Origin: a virus
Length of the DNA: 64,000 bases
Strand: one strand, 5' to 3'
IMG/VR virus record: IMGVR_UViG_3300027719_000021
Coordinates: 1 to 64,000 of that record
Each line of letters opens with the position of its first letter. Within the stretch, counting starts at the first letter, position 1. Position numbers and translations under genes: made by a program. The notes under the pieces were generated by a model, which saw nothing but the letters and a program-made list of their open reading frames with translations, was not told where the DNA came from and ran no database searches. Shown piece by piece: positions 1,881 to 14,885 of this stretch.

Positions 1881-2669
1881 ATGGCAAATGAAATGAAATA
1901 CTACCGTGGCGTTATCGGTGGTAAACCAAAAACCGACACAAATGGCGTAGTCGTAAAAGACGCCAGTGGTAATCCCATTATAGAATTCGTATTTACCTCA
2001 AAGCCACCTGCAGGTTTCACAAACACCAGGTTAATGCAAGGTGGTAAGTTCGTAATTCTCTATCTCACTGAAGATGAGGCTACATCAACCAAATCGAAGA
2101 ACGGTGAAGAGATGATGATCCCATCACCACAGAGACAAGCAAAGGAAGTAACAGTCTTCCAGAACTCATATCCTGTATTATTCCCATTCCTTGAGCAGGC
2201 TATCTTAGATAGCAAATATCATGAGAAGATGGGCGAAGACAAGATAAGACTGACCAAACTACTCATACCAGGCTTGGTTGACACATTCGATGTAGGCTTT
2301 GAGTTCTACAGAATGACAAGGGACGAATCAGGCAAAATGGTTCCGTTCCTCATACCTGAAAAACGTGATCCAGTCACAGGCAAAATCATTAAGAACCAGA
2401 AAGTAAGGGTAAGTGAATTATCCATGTTCTGGTATGGTAATGAAGTCGAAAGAGTCGAGGCACTGAGAAAATCAGCAATTGTGGCTCTTGAAGAGTATGC
2501 TGAAAAGGTGAAACCAGAAGGTGTAAAGTCCAACAGGGACGCTGTCATTGACAGTATAACCGAAGGTGAAGACAATGTTGTCGCTCCAATTGAAGCCGCA
2601 CCAGCACCTGCAGCACAGCCAGTACAGCCTGCCGCTCAAGCCCAGCCAGCAACACCAGTTGTAAGGTAG
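1881..2669 (+). CDS. hypothetical protein with Ala/Pro/Gln-rich tail, 262 aa
   Basis: A soluble N-terminal domain (about 1-215) is followed by an acidic linker (SITEGED) and a low-complexity Ala-Pro-Gln tail (about residues 232-262). The design, a compact domain plus a flexible tail, recalls DNA-binding accessory or scaffold proteins, but no family motif is visible and no function is claimed. Codon use is richer in G and C at third positions than in most neighbours, as expected of an abundant product. It is followed by a very stable UUCG hairpin, so it ends its transcript. Confidence 0.8.
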   Translation: MANEMKYYRGVIGGKPKTDTNGVVVKDASGNPIIEFVFTSKPPAGFTNTRLMQGGKFVILYLTEDEATSTKSKNGEEMMIPSPQRQAKEVTVFQNSYPVLFPFLEQAILDSKYHEKMGEDKIRLTKLLIPGLVDTFDVGFEFYRMTRDESGKMVPFLIPEKRDPVTGKIIKNQKVRVSELSMFWYGNEVERVEALRKSAIVALEEYAEKVKPEGVKSNRDAVIDSITEGEDNVVAPIEAAPAPAAQPVQPAAQAQPATPVVR

Positions 2670-2701
2670 ACAAACCAGAGCAAGTATGAATAAGTCACGC
2701 A

Positions 2702-2725
2702 AAGGGGTATCTTCGGATACCCCTT
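2702..2725 (+). terminator. UUCG-capped hairpin after the 262-aa gene
   Basis: A 10-bp perfect stem (AAGGGGTATC at 2702-2711 with GATACCCCTT at 2716-2725) is closed by the extra-stable tetraloop c(UUCG)g. The following sequence is TTATTATAAATT rather than a pure T tract, so it may act as a terminator, a 3'-end stabiliser, or both. Confidence 0.7.
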
Positions 2726-2810
2726 ATTATAAATTAGGGGGTGATAATCAAAGTTAGTATTAGGTACAGCCGTTTTGCGGATAAGGGTCAATACCTTCCC
2801 CCCACCTAAC

Positions 2811-2888
2811 GAAATGTATGCTCAATGGTTAAGTGAATTAACTGTTTGGCATAACGTTGTTTTTATATAACCAACGAGCGTACATTTC
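2811..2888 (+). ncRNA. stem-closed element f (13-bp helix, three-way fold)
   Basis: GAAATGTATGCTC (2811-2823) pairs with GAGCGTACATTTC (2876-2888), 13 bp with one G-U. Inside are GTTAA/TTAAC and GTTG/CAAC hairpins, giving a possible three-way junction of 78 nt, about tRNA size but without tRNA motifs. Confidence 0.5.
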
Positions 2889-3043
2889 AATCCATATTTT
2901 TTTATTATCTATAAGGATATTATACCTTATTTGAAGGCATTGTGTAATTGCTATTTTATTGGGTTTATCGTAGTTATACTTTGCCTTTTGTTTTGAATGT
3001 GTTATTTAATCAAAATATAAACCATTTATTAACAAAATCAATT

Positions 3044-3235
3044 ATGACCAAACAAAATCTTGAGAAACTGACCAAAGCCGACCTTATGGTATTGGCTAAC
3101 ACAGAGTACAAAGATGTCAAACTCAGCCCCAAAATGCTGAAAGCAGACATGATTGATGCTATTCAGAATGGCACCAAGCGTACCAAGACAACATCATCTG
3201 TTTCGCCGCAGCCAAGGGAAAAAGCCAGATACTAG
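3044..3235 (+). CDS. small SAP/HeH-like protein, 63 aa
   Basis: The segment LEKLTKADLMVLANTE followed by KMLKADMIDAIQ has the helix-extension-helix pattern of SAP/HeH/Rho-N type nucleic-acid-binding modules. The remainder is a short basic, Ser/Thr-rich tail. The ATG at 3044 is chosen because the upstream in-frame extension is a hydrophobic, leader-like stretch with no homology signal. It lies 6 nt before the amidoligase gene, so the two probably share a transcript. The fold is inferred from the pattern only; DNA or RNA binding is plausible. Confidence 0.7.
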   Translation: MTKQNLEKLTKADLMVLANTEYKDVKLSPKMLKADMIDAIQNGTKRTKTTSSVSPQPREKARY

Positions 3236-3241
3236 CAATAT

Positions 3242-4198
3242 ATGGCATCGTTGAATCAAAGGATTAAGGGTGCAGTATTAACTGCCCCTTACCTTTTACA
3301 CAAAATCCAATCGCAAAGCTCAACTAATCAGCATATATTTAATGCTGCTGTTAAGCGTTTGCTTCCACATAGAACATCTATGGAAATCGAACACATGCCA
3401 ATTGAGTTAGATTTATTTAACAGTAAAATTAATATACTTAAGTTAAATAATAAATACAATGATATATATGAATTTGATTTAAATGGTAATATCTTTAGTA
3501 AATTACACGCCATTGATGAATCAAAAATATCTATACACAATTGGCAATATTTAGAACCAACATATAATATATTAAATGTATTAAAAGAACATACATCACT
3601 TGATGACAATGGTTCTTTACATATACATGTAAACTTACATGCTTGGTACAAATGTATAGGTTTAAATGATATACAAAAATATCACAGAGCATTAGGCTAT
3701 AAAATATTAACCCATTCAGGTTCTGATGAAGTTTGCTATTTCCTAAAATATATACTTGATAAATTAGGAAAATTGTTTAGCATTACTTTAAATGAAAGTA
3801 CATTTGATTATTCTATTGGTTATTTAAAAGGAATTAGTGAATTTGAGTCTGGTAAAGGAAATAAGAGAGCAATAGGTTTTCTTAATGATGATTTAGACAA
3901 TATTATTGAAAAAACAAGGTATTATAATGAATATATGACATACTTAAGAAAAATGAGTGGTCAAGGTGATAATCATCAACAAAGGAAAAAGAAAGGAATA
4001 CCTGAATCATCGTGGAAACTAAATTGGATTAACATGAGAAATGATCCAACTACTATTGAATACAGAACAGGACCATGTACATTTGATTACAGTGAAATAA
4101 TAAATTACTGTATTGAGTGTAATAGAATAACAAAGGAATTTTTAAATTTTATTGACTATATTGGTGAGAGGACTGAACGGACTGCAGTATTACCGTAA
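3242..4198 (+). CDS. putative amidoligase (glutamine synthetase-like fold), 318 aa
   Basis: It resembles the amidoligase family (Amidoligase_2). There is an acidic MEIEHMP motif at residues 47-53, HIHVNLH at 127-133, and NWINMRN...TIEYRTG at about 261-277, followed by a helix, the order seen in these ATP-dependent amide-bond-forming enzymes. The insert at 200-250 is basic and low in complexity. Family members join amino groups to carboxylates in peptide or metabolite modification and often sit beside a glutamine amidotransferase. None is present here, so it acts alone or with host partners. Codon use is AT-rich. The substrate is unknown, and I rate the family call moderate to good. Confidence 0.65.
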   Translation: MASLNQRIKGAVLTAPYLLHKIQSQSSTNQHIFNAAVKRLLPHRTSMEIEHMPIELDLFNSKINILKLNNKYNDIYEFDLNGNIFSKLHAIDESKISIHNWQYLEPTYNILNVLKEHTSLDDNGSLHIHVNLHAWYKCIGLNDIQKYHRALGYKILTHSGSDEVCYFLKYILDKLGKLFSITLNESTFDYSIGYLKGISEFESGKGNKRAIGFLNDDLDNIIEKTRYYNEYMTYLRKMSGQGDNHQQRKKKGIPESSWKLNWINMRNDPTTIEYRTGPCTFDYSEIINYCIECNRITKEFLNFIDYIGERTERTAVLP

Positions 4199-4513: not shown

Positions 4514-4608
4514 TCCTCTATAATTTAGTGGTTAGAATATATTTGAATATTTATGCCGAAGAAGTATAAAGAAACAAATAGACGTTGGTTCGAATCCAAC
4601 TTGAGGAA
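4514..4608 (+). tRNA. tRNA-like gene with an expanded anticodon region
   Basis: A perfect T arm is present (GTTGG, loop TTCGAAT, CCAAC at 4584-4600), with a 7-nt acceptor pairing (TCCTCTA 4514-4520 with TTGAGGA 4601-4607, one mismatch) and a D arm ATTT/GAAT with AGTGGTTA loop. Between D and T arms, however, there are 45 nt instead of about 22. A 6-bp helix TATTTG (4540-4545) with CAAATA (4575-4580) stands where the anticodon stem should be, but it encloses 29 nt and position 33 is not a clear U. It could be an intron-bearing, long-variable-arm or decayed tRNA. I assign no anticodon. Confidence 0.5.
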
Positions 4609-5041: not shown

Positions 5042-5367
5042 GGGGGTGACCTGGTTTTGACAGCAGTGTAAACATATCTATTGCAATGGCTAGAGCTTAA
5101 TTAGCATAAAATAGGCACAACAAATAAGCGACGATACAACAATTGTTCGCATGTATAGTGAACTCAGACTGAGCGCATAATACATCTGGTAGTCACACTA
5201 GCCATGGAACATAAATGTGACAACAGATTTAGTTATTAGATTAAATAACTTGGTGGAGCTGGTATTTTACCAGTACGTCCCAGTTGTCTGTTCACAACAG
5301 AATATCATTGTAGTATATAGGTATTAGTAGTATTGTCTGGACGCGGGTTCGACTCCCGTCACCTCCA
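5042..5367 (+). ncRNA. ssrA: tmRNA (phage-encoded)
   Basis: The 5' end GGGGGTGACC...TTTTGACAGC and the 3' end TGGACGCGGGTTCGACTCCC with CACCTCC form the tRNA-like domain: a 7-bp acceptor (GGGGGTG with CACCTCC, one G-U) and a canonical T arm. Both ends resemble Bacteroides tmRNA. The 326-nt length and a hairpin-rich middle suit pseudoknots. CCA is not encoded. A candidate tag frame resumes at GCA 5115-5117 and runs 21 codons to TAA 5178-5180, ending LRLSA. A second frame resuming at GGC (5114) and ending at TAG is possible, so the tag is tentative. The product would rescue stalled ribosomes during infection. Confidence 0.88.
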
Positions 5368-5378
5368 CAATTAAACAT

Positions 5379-7021: not shown

Positions 7022-7104
7022 GCCCAGATGGTGGAATGGTAGACACGAAGGACTTAAAATCCTTTGACTTAACAGTTGTGCAGGTTCAAGTCCTGTTCTG
7101 GGTA
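7022..7104 (+). tRNA. tRNA-Leu(UAA)
   Basis: The cloverleaf is complete: acceptor GCCCAGA with TCTGGGT (G1-U72 wobble), D loop with GG, anticodon arm AAGGA-CTTAAAA-TCCTT (anticodon TAA), a long class II variable arm as expected for Leu, and a T arm with loop TTCAAGT. The discriminator is A and CCA is not encoded. Confidence 0.95.
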
Positions 7105-11655: not shown

Positions 11656-13098
11656 ATGGTAAGCTATCAATCTACAATAAGAACCATACTAAGAGCTTTA
11701 TCCGATCAAGATAAAGAAGAATTATCTATTCTGGTAGCTTATTATGGACGTCAGATTGAAGATGATGAAACTCCTATTATATTTATTAAAGAAGACAAAG
11801 AGCACGTATTATGTAGATTAGCGCTAATGATACTTGGCTTAGATTTTGCTGTAATACCTACAACAATGTCTAATGCAGAAATAACATCTTCTTTTACAGA
11901 TTTTAGTAAGGGAGTCATTATAACTGATAATATAGAAAATGTTGAAAGTAAATCTCTATTGTTTCGTACACTAGATTTTTATCCTGACAACTATAATGTA
12001 AAATCAGAGATATTTGACGAAGAAGAATATCCTAACTGGACTATGATACTATATGATACAAAAAGAAATCAAGTAATGATTAACAGTACTTTATTTTCTT
12101 TATTATATGAAAATCTTGATATGAACTTCCAAAAGTATGGAATATTTTATCAGAGAGAATGTTCTATTCTTGCTGAATCAGAAGATTTCTTCTTATATTA
12201 TTTAGTATCGAGATCCTACTCAAGAATACCATTTACAATAAATGAATATGAAAAGGAACAATTGCTTCTCATATCATATAACAATTACAAAACAATTTGG
12301 AAAGAAACACTATCCTTAACACTACAAAACAAAATATTCTTTAAATTATTCTTTAATAAGATAATAGGGAGAATTATTATGTTAATAGTAGTGAAAAGAT
12401 TCTTAAAGCGATTTAAACTATTTAAAAAAATAGTTGTACTAGGATTAATTACTGATCCTATACTAGCGGAAGTATCAGAAAAACTTAGAAGTAAGAAAGT
12501 ATTTAATACATATGGCGAAACTAGTAGTTTAATGGCTACTGGTATGTCACAGAAACCAGGACATATATCTATAATACCTGGTCTTTCTACAGCTTCTATC
12601 TCATTAAAGGAAAGCTCAAAGAATTTTAGGATTCTTTCTAAAGATAATGATGTAAATACATTTGATAGAGTATCAAACGTTATGTTATCTTTTCGAACAA
12701 ATAACTTATTATTAAACGTAATAAGCGATTCGTTATTTATAATAAATGGTGATTATGCAAAATTCCTAGGACACGCTTTTACAAATGGAGTATGCCCTAT
12801 ACATATTGAATCAATTTTTAACTCATTCCCATTTATCAAGGATTCTGCTTTAGTATTATGGAAAGGAAACTATCATCTTTTATTAGATGTAGATGAGGCA
12901 ATACTTGAAGCAAATAACATCAACTACGTGTTCTTTAATAAGATTATGAAAGGACAAGTAGATAAAATGAATGAACTTGTATTGCCAAAAGCGATACAAA
13001 TAAAAACTTTTGGACAAGTCCCATGTTCTGTGCCTAACTATAACAGACTGGGCCTATTAAATAAAGATTTTCTATATAATGTAGAATTCATTGTTTGA
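11656..13098 (+). CDS. degenerate ANL-fold (acyl-adenylate ligase-like) protein, 480 aa
   Basis: Landmarks in order match AMP-forming ligases. An N-terminal segment LALMILGLDFAVIPTTMSN with following GVIITDN (about 55-95) resembles the first subdomain. The A5 motif is NTYGETSSLMATG at about 284-296, where ligases have YGxTE. A C-terminal segment NGVCPIHIESIFNSFPFIKDSALV (about 376-400) matches the GxxVxPxxIE helix. The Gly/Ser/Thr-rich ATP loop (A3) is replaced at about 128-140 by TMILYDTKRNQVM, and the usual A10 Lys is not obvious. It therefore looks like an inactivated or repurposed ligase fold. It ends one base before the giant non-coding region. Confidence 0.5.
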   Translation: MVSYQSTIRTILRALSDQDKEELSILVAYYGRQIEDDETPIIFIKEDKEHVLCRLALMILGLDFAVIPTTMSNAEITSSFTDFSKGVIITDNIENVESKSLLFRTLDFYPDNYNVKSEIFDEEEYPNWTMILYDTKRNQVMINSTLFSLLYENLDMNFQKYGIFYQRECSILAESEDFFLYYLVSRSYSRIPFTINEYEKEQLLLISYNNYKTIWKETLSLTLQNKIFFKLFFNKIIGRIIMLIVVKRFLKRFKLFKKIVVLGLITDPILAEVSEKLRSKKVFNTYGETSSLMATGMSQKPGHISIIPGLSTASISLKESSKNFRILSKDNDVNTFDRVSNVMLSFRTNNLLLNVISDSLFIINGDYAKFLGHAFTNGVCPIHIESIFNSFPFIKDSALVLWKGNYHLLLDVDEAILEANNINYVFFNKIMKGQVDKMNELVLPKAIQIKTFGQVPCSVPNYNRLGLLNKDFLYNVEFIV

Positions 13099-14430
13099 TA
13101 GTAGAGACGTTAGTTGCCGTCAATAATTAGTATAATGAGTAGATCTACCGGAGATTGCTGATACATTAGAAAATAATACGGGTTACACACATTGACGCAC
13201 TGAACAGTACATTTAATAATCTATACTACTAATAATTTTATAGGTGTAAGGGACAGCAAATCTCTTAGATAATGTACAACATGCTGTGCTGATGTTAACA
13301 TAATGTTAACTAAACGCAATAGACTTTGCCTATGTGTCTTCTAATTGCATAAATTATACTCGTGACGAACAGGGTGGAATTCCCAATGAAAAATACATTG
13401 TCTCTAAGTCACAGACTAGGTTGCTATGCTAGAAATGAGAGCAAAACCTATCAAAGGTAAAGGCATCGTGTTTGTATTACGAAAGTATATGCCAAACTAC
13501 ACGTAAAAATAAGTTTTAGGTACGACTACCAGTAACCAAATCTGGGTTGAATAAAAAAGCTAGGATCTGACCCCTTCTTAACAAAGGAATAACTAGTGAG
13601 ATGTCGAAAAATTATTGGAAAGTATTAAACTTATTGGTAAATTGGGTGCTATAATCAAATAGCTTCGAGGTTGAAATCCTCCACGCGTATCCAAGAGAGG
13701 CCGTTAACAGCCGTAGTGCAAAGGGGCCCAATCGCTTAAAAGTACAGTAGCTAGAAACTGTATTTGATAGTCACTAAGTTAATTAATATTGGAAAATAAT
13801 GCTTTATCGGGTTTAATGTTTTAGATTAAATATGTTAGACTGCACAGATAATATATTGGCGTAAAATAGGAATATATTACAGCAAGTGACATCGAAGAAT
13901 ATTAAACAAGCCGAACTGAGTCGGATAGTATACTCAGAAACGCAACTAATGATATATTTGTGAAACATTTTATATAAAGAAGTGCGAAACAAGTTCGGTA
14001 AATCATTTCTTACTGGAACTGACTAGTGTGAAAACTGTTAGCTCTATATCTACAACAGATGTAGTGAAAGTAGGGAGGTTTGAGGCCCGTCTAGTAGTAG
14101 CTGCTGATGTGAAAGTCAGATTACGCGTGTCGTTAAAATTATTTTTTGTATAAAGGGAGTAATAAATATGGAGGTGGAGCAAGGATCAATATAGAAATAT
14201 ATTTGCCAGCTAAAATTATGCATGTTTATTGAAAAAACAAAACTCTACTGCTATCGTAAGCTAGTACATTGATACTTAATTACCATGTCAATAGCTGTAG
14301 AGTGAGCAAACAAAACCTTATGGTGAGTATATGCTCATCTAAAAGCAACAGAGAGAAAGGAAAAGTGTTTTACTTGTCTGACGATGAGATTGCATTTCTC
14401 GTTTGTTTATCACTCTACTTATTTTTTAAT
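13099..14430 (+). ncRNA. candidate giant structured RNA, about 1.3 kb
   Basis: It starts right after a stop codon and ends in a T-rich tract before the next gene. I find no ORF above about 60 codons in any frame. Helices seen by eye: GACG/CGTC 13106-13121; TTACAC/GTGTAA 13183-13249; GTTAAC/GTTAAC 13294-13310; a junction closed by ATTGGG/CCCAAT (13641-13646 with 13727-13732) holding a GCTAT/ATAGC arm and a T-arm-like GAGG-TTGAAAT-CCTC (13667-13681); TACAGT/ACTGTA 13743-13762; GCCGAACT/AGTTCGGT 13910-13999; and the 3' module at 14242-14425. AGTAGAG (13100-13106) can pair with CTCTACT (14413-14419) to close the whole. It recalls phage giant RNAs such as GOLLD and ROOL in size and setting only. 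Confidence 0.6.
14242..14425 (+). promoter_or_regulatory. possible RNA switch or attenuator at the 3' end of the giant RNA
   Basis: GTAGAGT (14297-14303) has two partners. Upstream ACTCTAC (14242-14248) forms a hairpin extended by GCTAT/ATAGC. Downstream ACTCTAC (14412-14418) forms a longer helix extended by AAACAAA (14308-14314) with TTTGTTT (14402-14408). The downstream helix is followed by a T-rich tract (ATTTTTTAATT), so the second fold would resemble a terminator. The two folds exclude each other, as in attenuators. The next gene starts at 14445. Confidence 0.4.
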
Positions 14431-14444
14431 TAATAACCACTTAA

Positions 14445-14885
14445 ATGAAAACAAATTACTATTTTGAGTTACTAACAAACTGTAGTCCTATAGTAAAAGG
14501 TGGTGAATTAATTAAAGATTCGAATGTAGGAGGAATAAAGAATACATACAATGTTTATAAAGTTTATAGTATATTTACTGTAAGCTTATATAAGCGTCAT
14601 TTGGGTAAAGTCATTCTACTAAGACCATATAAATCAATATGGAATAAAAGAATGTCAAGGTTACCAAAAATTTATTGGGGTAAGGATCCCATTTTTATTA
14701 ATATGTGGTTATTGTTAACAAAGGATTATGATAAACTAAATGTTTCATTTGGTTCAACGAGTGTATTGATGTATGAAAGCACCACCCAAACTAAAACTAT
14801 TAGTATATTAAATGTACAATTCGAATCCAAATTAATAAAGAAATTCCTAAAAACAAATCAATCCTTTAGTATAAATCAAAAATAA
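14445..14885 (+). CDS. hypothetical protein, 146 aa
   Basis: Basic protein with several hydrophobic beta-like segments (YNVYKVYSIFTVSLYKRH, VILLRPYKS, FINMWLLLTKDY) but no clear TM helix. AT-rich codons. It is the first gene after the giant non-coding RNA and is followed 8 nt later by a gene with different codon use. No family recognised. Confidence 0.7.
   Translation: MKTNYYFELLTNCSPIVKGGELIKDSNVGGIKNTYNVYKVYSIFTVSLYKRHLGKVILLRPYKSIWNKRMSRLPKIYWGKDPIFINMWLLLTKDYDKLNVSFGSTSVLMYESTTQTKTISILNVQFESKLIKKFLKTNQSFSINQK

Follow-up and report, generated by a model that had tools for sequence, protein, structure and literature searches.

Introduction

To our knowledge, bacteria and phages have yielded very few giant structured RNAs, and the recently solved ones are RNA cages of unknown use. 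The cage of GOLLD is a 14-mer, and that of ROOL (Rumen-Originating, Ornate, Large) is an octamer. A further point of reference is provided by the viral tRNA mimics, which copy the tRNA elbow.

GOLLD is a giant ornate phage RNA whose 3′ part is conserved and whose 5′ part varies. It is often located near tRNA genes, and some of its copies carry tRNAs in a linker. ROOL is a large phage RNA of complex fold and unknown function that is found near tRNA islands and assembles into nanocages; cage formation and a location near tRNA genes are common to both RNAs (PMC12286853). The ribosome, RNase P, and T-boxes, in turn, use T-loop folds for the recognition of tRNA elbows (PMC4810234).

Here we analyze an intergenic region in a stretch of 64,000 nucleotides (the window) at the start of a virus record of 104.6 kb. 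The region belongs to a previously undescribed RNA family. The kind of RNA is already known; the family is larger than the known ones, carries a module that is permuted in an unusual way, and is among the largest structured RNAs in viruses of bacteria.

Results and Discussion

Genomic Context

Judged by its proteins, the source virus is a crAss-like phage: the major capsid protein matches Crass_capsid with E = 7.5e-170, and the large terminase is 50-52% identical to those of human-gut crAss-like phages. The slot under study comprises the 1346 bases that separate a 480-aa gene, which stops at 13098, from a 146-aa gene, which starts at 14445:

11656 to 13098, + strand: upstream gene, 480 aa, a diverged AMP-binding (ANL) enzyme according to profile comparison
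13099 to 14444, + strand: giant structured non-coding RNA spanning the whole intergenic interval, with putative ends (ORF-free, synteny, alifold)
14445 to 14885, + strand: downstream gene, 146 aa, of a family without known function, adjoining the RNA in every member

A gene for an AMP-binding (ANL) enzyme is unusual in a phage. The upstream genes of the relatives L082, L083, L084, and L085 match PF00501 above the cut-off, and profile comparison links the 480-aa protein of the window to these enzymes with 95% probability. The adenylating-enzyme gene is located directly 5′ of the RNA in the window, L082-L085, and L181, and its product is possibly a partner of the RNA.

There are tRNAs at 7022 and 7778 of the window. 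Upstream of the RNA region there is also a tmRNA gene (5042-5370, + strand, ARAGORN tag DDTTIVRMYSELRLSA), which scores 82 bits in Rfam against a cut-off of 47; tmRNAs are uncommon in phages. An Rfam tRNA match of 42.6 bits over 95 nt at 4514-4608 (+ strand), to which no ARAGORN call corresponds, is possibly a tRNA with a long variable arm or an otherwise unusual tRNA. In L083-L085, a tRNA is located 2-3 kb downstream.

Members of the Family

With only the flanking 480-aa and 146-aa proteins as queries, no close relatives were recovered, and searches of annotated phage records by DNA and by the downstream protein gave none. Relatives were recovered when the ribonucleotide reductase (RNR) gene, located 3.6 kb downstream, was used as the query. 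L009 and L002 contain the complete region in synteny, with ~70% nucleotide identity to the window, and the RNRs of L003 and L085 as queries led to additional phages. In L003, L081, L082, L083, L084, L085, L099, and L172, the same slot is ORF-free over ~1.6-2.0 kb, and the gene directly after it is homologous to the 146-aa gene. The homology of L003 and L081, which a three-sequence nhmmer profile did not reach, is based on synteny and shared modules; the alignment of the downstream protein is too diverged for use in scanning. The L172 contig (JAGYLR010000005.1) is a family phage binned in the GTDB bacterial genome record 'Bacterium isolate M50B98'.

Module A of the RNA (see below) was also used alone, as a DNA pattern, in the search for further members. 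This was a prediction test that could have failed. It returned three new contigs from two species (L177/L181 and L180), in which the neighbors are as predicted: the downstream gene is at the expected place in L180 and L181, and the upstream gene in L177/L181. The remaining RNA modules are also found in these contigs. A DNA-pattern match in L076 was rejected as a chance match within a gene. Module A is missing from other RNR-bearing phages, where scores do not exceed 20.7 bits, so that within the present sampling the RNA is confined to this lineage.

The family comprises at least 13 distinct members, all of them crAss-like phages and all ORF-free in a region of 1.3-2.0 kb. The first-pass annotation of the window had proposed an RNA of about 1.3 kb, a size that holds for the window itself; in relatives, the RNA reaches up to ~2.0 kb. 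Every member with a sufficiently long contig shows one and the same arrangement, namely, the AMP-binding-enzyme-like gene (if covered by the contig), the RNA region, and the gene for the ~146-aa protein.

Other ORF-poor stretches near RNR lie outside the family. The related phage L004 has a different 0.9-kb ORF-free region (2362-3261), ~5.6 kb upstream of RNR, which starts with a tRNA-like domain without an anticodon arm (GGTCAAT...GGGGGTGCGAATCCCCC...ATTGACC). This region has no module A match and may be another large RNA. Module A is also absent from the ORF-poor stretches L102:17060-19520, L155/L167:4632-5670, L163:11972-13109, and L162:5771-6511.

Non-Coding Character

The region 13099-14444 is non-coding. 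It had been annotated as having no ORF above about 60 codons, and indeed none of 60 codons or more is present on either strand; the longest stop-to-stop frame has 69 codons, compared to a shuffle median of 79. Since stop codons are frequently reassigned in crAss-like phages, the codes TAG=Q and TGA=W were also considered. The longest frames are then 155 and 83 codons, respectively, both inside the shuffle range.

The comparison with relatives leads to the same picture. A conserved ORF, which the first-pass annotation had named as a finding that would count against its proposal, was not found in any of the 13 members, and in none of the 13 do the frames exceed those of shuffled sequences, whether read with table 11, TAG=Q, or TGA=W. 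The substitutions between the window and L009 are distributed evenly over the codon phases (126/126/120), without codon periodicity, and the indels between the two are mostly non-multiples of three that break the frame. The common stop reassignment in crAss-like phages could suggest a decayed or recoded protein gene; with frames at shuffle level under three codes in all 13 members, a flat phase distribution, and frame-breaking indels, the coding interpretation is refuted and retains next to no probability.

Folding and Conservation of the Region

The alignment of the window, L009, and L002 gives an RNAalifold energy of -547, compared to -408 ± 13 for 40 column-shuffled alignments (z = -10.8). 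The interval, which had been described as full of complementary segments, thus folds far better than the shuffled controls. In an independent set, consisting of L083, L084, and L085, z is -20.6. In both cases, folding is better for the + strand than for the complementary strand (-547 vs -467 and -993 vs -940, respectively), and helices with up to 5 compensatory pairs are present in the two sets.

Conservation and covariation in relatives, which had been suggested as a check, are both strong. The RNA shares 72% nucleotide identity with that of L009, while the neighboring upstream protein shares 45% amino-acid identity. The segments between the modules are too variable for sequence alignment across the 13 members, and the RNA family is conserved by structure rather than by sequence.

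The long-range pairings proposed from the window alone need revision in part. The pairing of 13910-13917 with 13992-13999 is lost in L009 and L002 and was rejected; the partner of positions 13992-14001 is instead 14010-14020, and this helix has 4 compensatory pairs. The 7-bp pairing proposed to close the whole molecule (13100-13106/14413-14419) is kept in the relatives, but it requires G-U pairs and one mismatch and shows no compensatory change.

Helices and Modules

The elements of the RNA are as follows:

13208 to 13276, + strand: helix 13208-13213/13271-13276, 3 compensatory pairs, three relatives
13362 to 13412, + strand: universal module A, outer helix 13362-13366/13408-13412, covariation over 13 members
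13641 to 13732, + strand: tRNA-elbow-like junction, covariation
13667 to 13681, + strand: universal module B, T-arm hairpin with the loop UUGAAAU, covariation
13687 to 13724, + strand: conserved words GTATCCAAG (13687-13695) and GTGCAAAGG (13716-13724)
13807 to 13914, + strand: long conserved stem with internal loops, nearly invariant in close relatives
13992 to 14020, + strand: hairpin, 4 compensatory pairs
14042 to 14066, + strand: hairpin, 5 compensatory pairs
14104 to 14119, + strand: universal module C, hairpin CTGAT-GTGAAA-GTCAG, whose loop contains a conserved TGAAA, covariation
14342 to 14410, + strand: 3′ domain AAAGCAACAGAG ... TTTTACTTGTC ... GATTGCATTTCTC, short shared words
14419 to 14428, + strand: T-rich 3′ end TTATTTTTTA, sequence comparison

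The covariation of modules A, B, and C is far above that of shuffled and slid controls. In module A, 97.4% of the cells are paired, and the covariation score is 0.615, compared to 0.263 for the shuffled controls (0/500). The outer helix of this module is paired in 13/13 members, and each of its five pairs shows two-sided changes. The helix encloses an inner hairpin (13371-13374/13382-13385) with a 7-nt loop, which is UGGAAUU in the window and UGRRAUU-like across the 13 members. A covariance model of module A gives 46-78 bits on the members, and no other score in a background of 1.86 Mb of related phage DNA exceeds 20.7 bits. Because the 13 members are the training set of the model, these scores show specificity, not discovery.

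Module B has a 7-nt loop with U at the first and A at the fifth position in 12 of the 13 members, and its covariation score is 0.462 (0.229 for the controls, 0/500). The T-loop of L172 is shortened. The module matches the form of a tRNA T-arm; the version in L084 (GTGAG-TTCGAAT-CTCAC) has the loop UUCGAAU, like a real tRNA. The highest covariation score is that of module C, 0.838 vs 0.274 (0/500).

The helix 13208-13276 occurs as UACAUU/AAUGUA, CAUAUC/GAUAUG, and CACAUC/GAUGUG, and the hairpin 14042-14066 as CUCUAUAUC/GAUGUAGUG, GUUUAUGCC/GGCAUAAGC, and GCUCAUGUC/GACAUGAGC. The stem 13807-13914 is formed by GTTTAATGTT/AATATTAAAC, with the inner pairs ACTGC/GCAAGT and GATAATATATT/AATATATTAC. 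The 3′ domain reads AAARCATTNAGAG ... GGTTTACGRTT ... ATGCACTC in the relatives, and the T-rich 3′ end is kept in L009 and L002 and is not seen in clade II (defined below).

The tRNA-Elbow-like Junction and Its Permutation

The junction at 13641-13732, with its T-arm-like hairpin (loop TTGAAAT), had already been noticed in the window; it is real, and it covaries. It is composed of a closing helix (13641-13647/13726-13732), a D-like hairpin (13648-13663), and the T-arm (13667-13681). The latter two are the only tRNA-like parts of the region; an anticodon arm is absent, and scans of 13099-14444 with ARAGORN and Rfam turn up no tRNA.

The order of the elements differs between two groups of phages. 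In the window, L009, L002, L003, and L081, GTATCCAAG and, if present, GTGCAAAGG follow the T-arm. In clade II (L082-L085, L099, L172, L180, and L181), the T-arm comes after the two words, and the counterpart of the closing helix is a local covarying hairpin with the loop YCGTAAN, as expected if a single module had been circularly permuted. The split follows the RNR tree, in which the group of the window, L009, L002, L003, and L081 has a support of 0.98, and no intermediate between the two orders is seen. From the element order and the shared words, we infer that the swap represents a natural circular permutation within the RNA that affects this module. Such a permutation would provide a test of how large RNAs evolve.

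Interpretation and Alternatives

Rfam scans at gathering thresholds, applied to the window and the relatives, give no match to GOLLD, ROOL, or OLE, in line with the check that the first-pass annotation had proposed. At E ≤ 10, the region in the window, L085, and L181 shows no GOLLD, ROOL, OLE, T-box, intron, or ribozyme. The literature searched, which leaves out most subscription journals, reports no such RNA for crAss-like phages. Since there is no conserved ORF, the covariation is strong, and no Rfam family matches, a new RNA class, which the annotation had regarded as possible, is the best interpretation. That we are dealing with a real structured RNA family is almost certain.

The main rival is that the region serves the ~146-aa gene as a very long, structured 5′ UTR (leader) and regulates it in cis; the T-loop module would then sense tRNA or the translation state in a somewhat T-box-like manner. 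The same gene is indeed located directly downstream on the same strand in 13/13 members, no strong terminator conserved across the clades was found, and T-box leaders read tRNA by means of T-loop modules (PMC4810234). However, no T-box or other riboswitch in Rfam matches the region, and in the clade of the window a T-rich, stop-like end precedes the gene. We also know of no leader class as long as 1.3-2.0 kb. A leader is thus an unlikely explanation, albeit one to be taken seriously. An action in trans is instead favored, because the size of the RNA exceeds what a leader needs and because the RNA is better conserved than the upstream protein; we consider it reasonably likely.

A self-splicing intron or another ribozyme would also be a large folded phage RNA, and a group I intron does occur elsewhere in L009 (19681-19918; Rfam, 74 bits), with none in the window at the gathering threshold. 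The region is, however, situated between two complete genes rather than inside one, and introns were rejected, as neither they nor ribozyme families match it even at E up to 10, which makes this option very improbable. The fixed genome position might alternatively reflect a DNA element, i.e., a replication origin or packaging site that pairs as single-stranded DNA. The better folding of the + strand in both sets, the use of G-U pairs in the helices, and the presence of more than 50 helices over 1.3 kb, which an origin would not need, leave such an element with a very slight probability indeed.

We lean toward the interpretation that the region is a member of a new giant structured RNA family, probably a folded particle that acts in trans and may touch the translation machinery. 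The multi-domain RNA, ~1.35 kb in the window, would be read from the + strand with the neighboring co-directed genes and would be made as a separate or processed RNA. It may then fold into a large particle, as the ornate phage RNAs GOLLD and ROOL do, and work in trans, its T-loop modules meeting tRNA-binding partners, such as the host ribosome, tRNA, or tRNA-binding factors. Contact with the host translation machinery is suggested by the T-loop modules and can be put forward tentatively, by analogy; they may serve either tRNA-elbow recognition or tRNA mimicry. The formation of a homo-oligomeric particle, also by analogy, is somewhat unlikely. A more specific and rather speculative proposal is that the elbow-like T-arm mimic is a core part of an RNA machine larger than GOLLD and ROOL, retained through circular permutation, and that the particle captures or decoys host translation components. 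Such a machine would possibly work with the flanking adenylating-enzyme-like and ~146-aa proteins. The tRNA-like module offers a concrete handle on binding to the ribosome or to tRNA-binding factors.

Comparison with Known Systems

The family is about twice as long as the recently solved giant RNAs and is tied to the crAss-like lineage, and its 13 natural variants and conserved gene neighborhood constitute a fresh system for the study of giant-RNA function. Compared to OLE, also a large ornate bacterial RNA, it differs in that OLE has ~600 nt, occurs in Bacillota, and has the partners OapA/B/C, which are not seen here; there is also no Rfam match. With ROOL it shares a large complex fold and a phage location near tRNA genes, but ROOL is ~0.6 kb long, against 1.3-2.0 kb here, has other conserved motifs, and does not match in Rfam. 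T-loop folds are used both here and in the T-box Stem I and the RNase P specificity domain, neither of which gives an Rfam match; there the T-loops are interdigitated; here they cap hairpins like the T-arm of a tRNA.

The differences from GOLLD are the lack of an Rfam match, the length (1.3-2.0 kb vs 800+ nt), and the tRNA-like module, which in the crAss-like RNA is part of the fold and has no anticodon arm. The likeness consists of the nearby tRNA genes, the conserved 3′ domain, and the tRNA-like module in this genome. The region is long, ORF-free, and conserved, with many covarying helices, as is characteristic of large ornate non-coding RNAs, and, like GOLLD, it is phage-encoded near tRNA genes.
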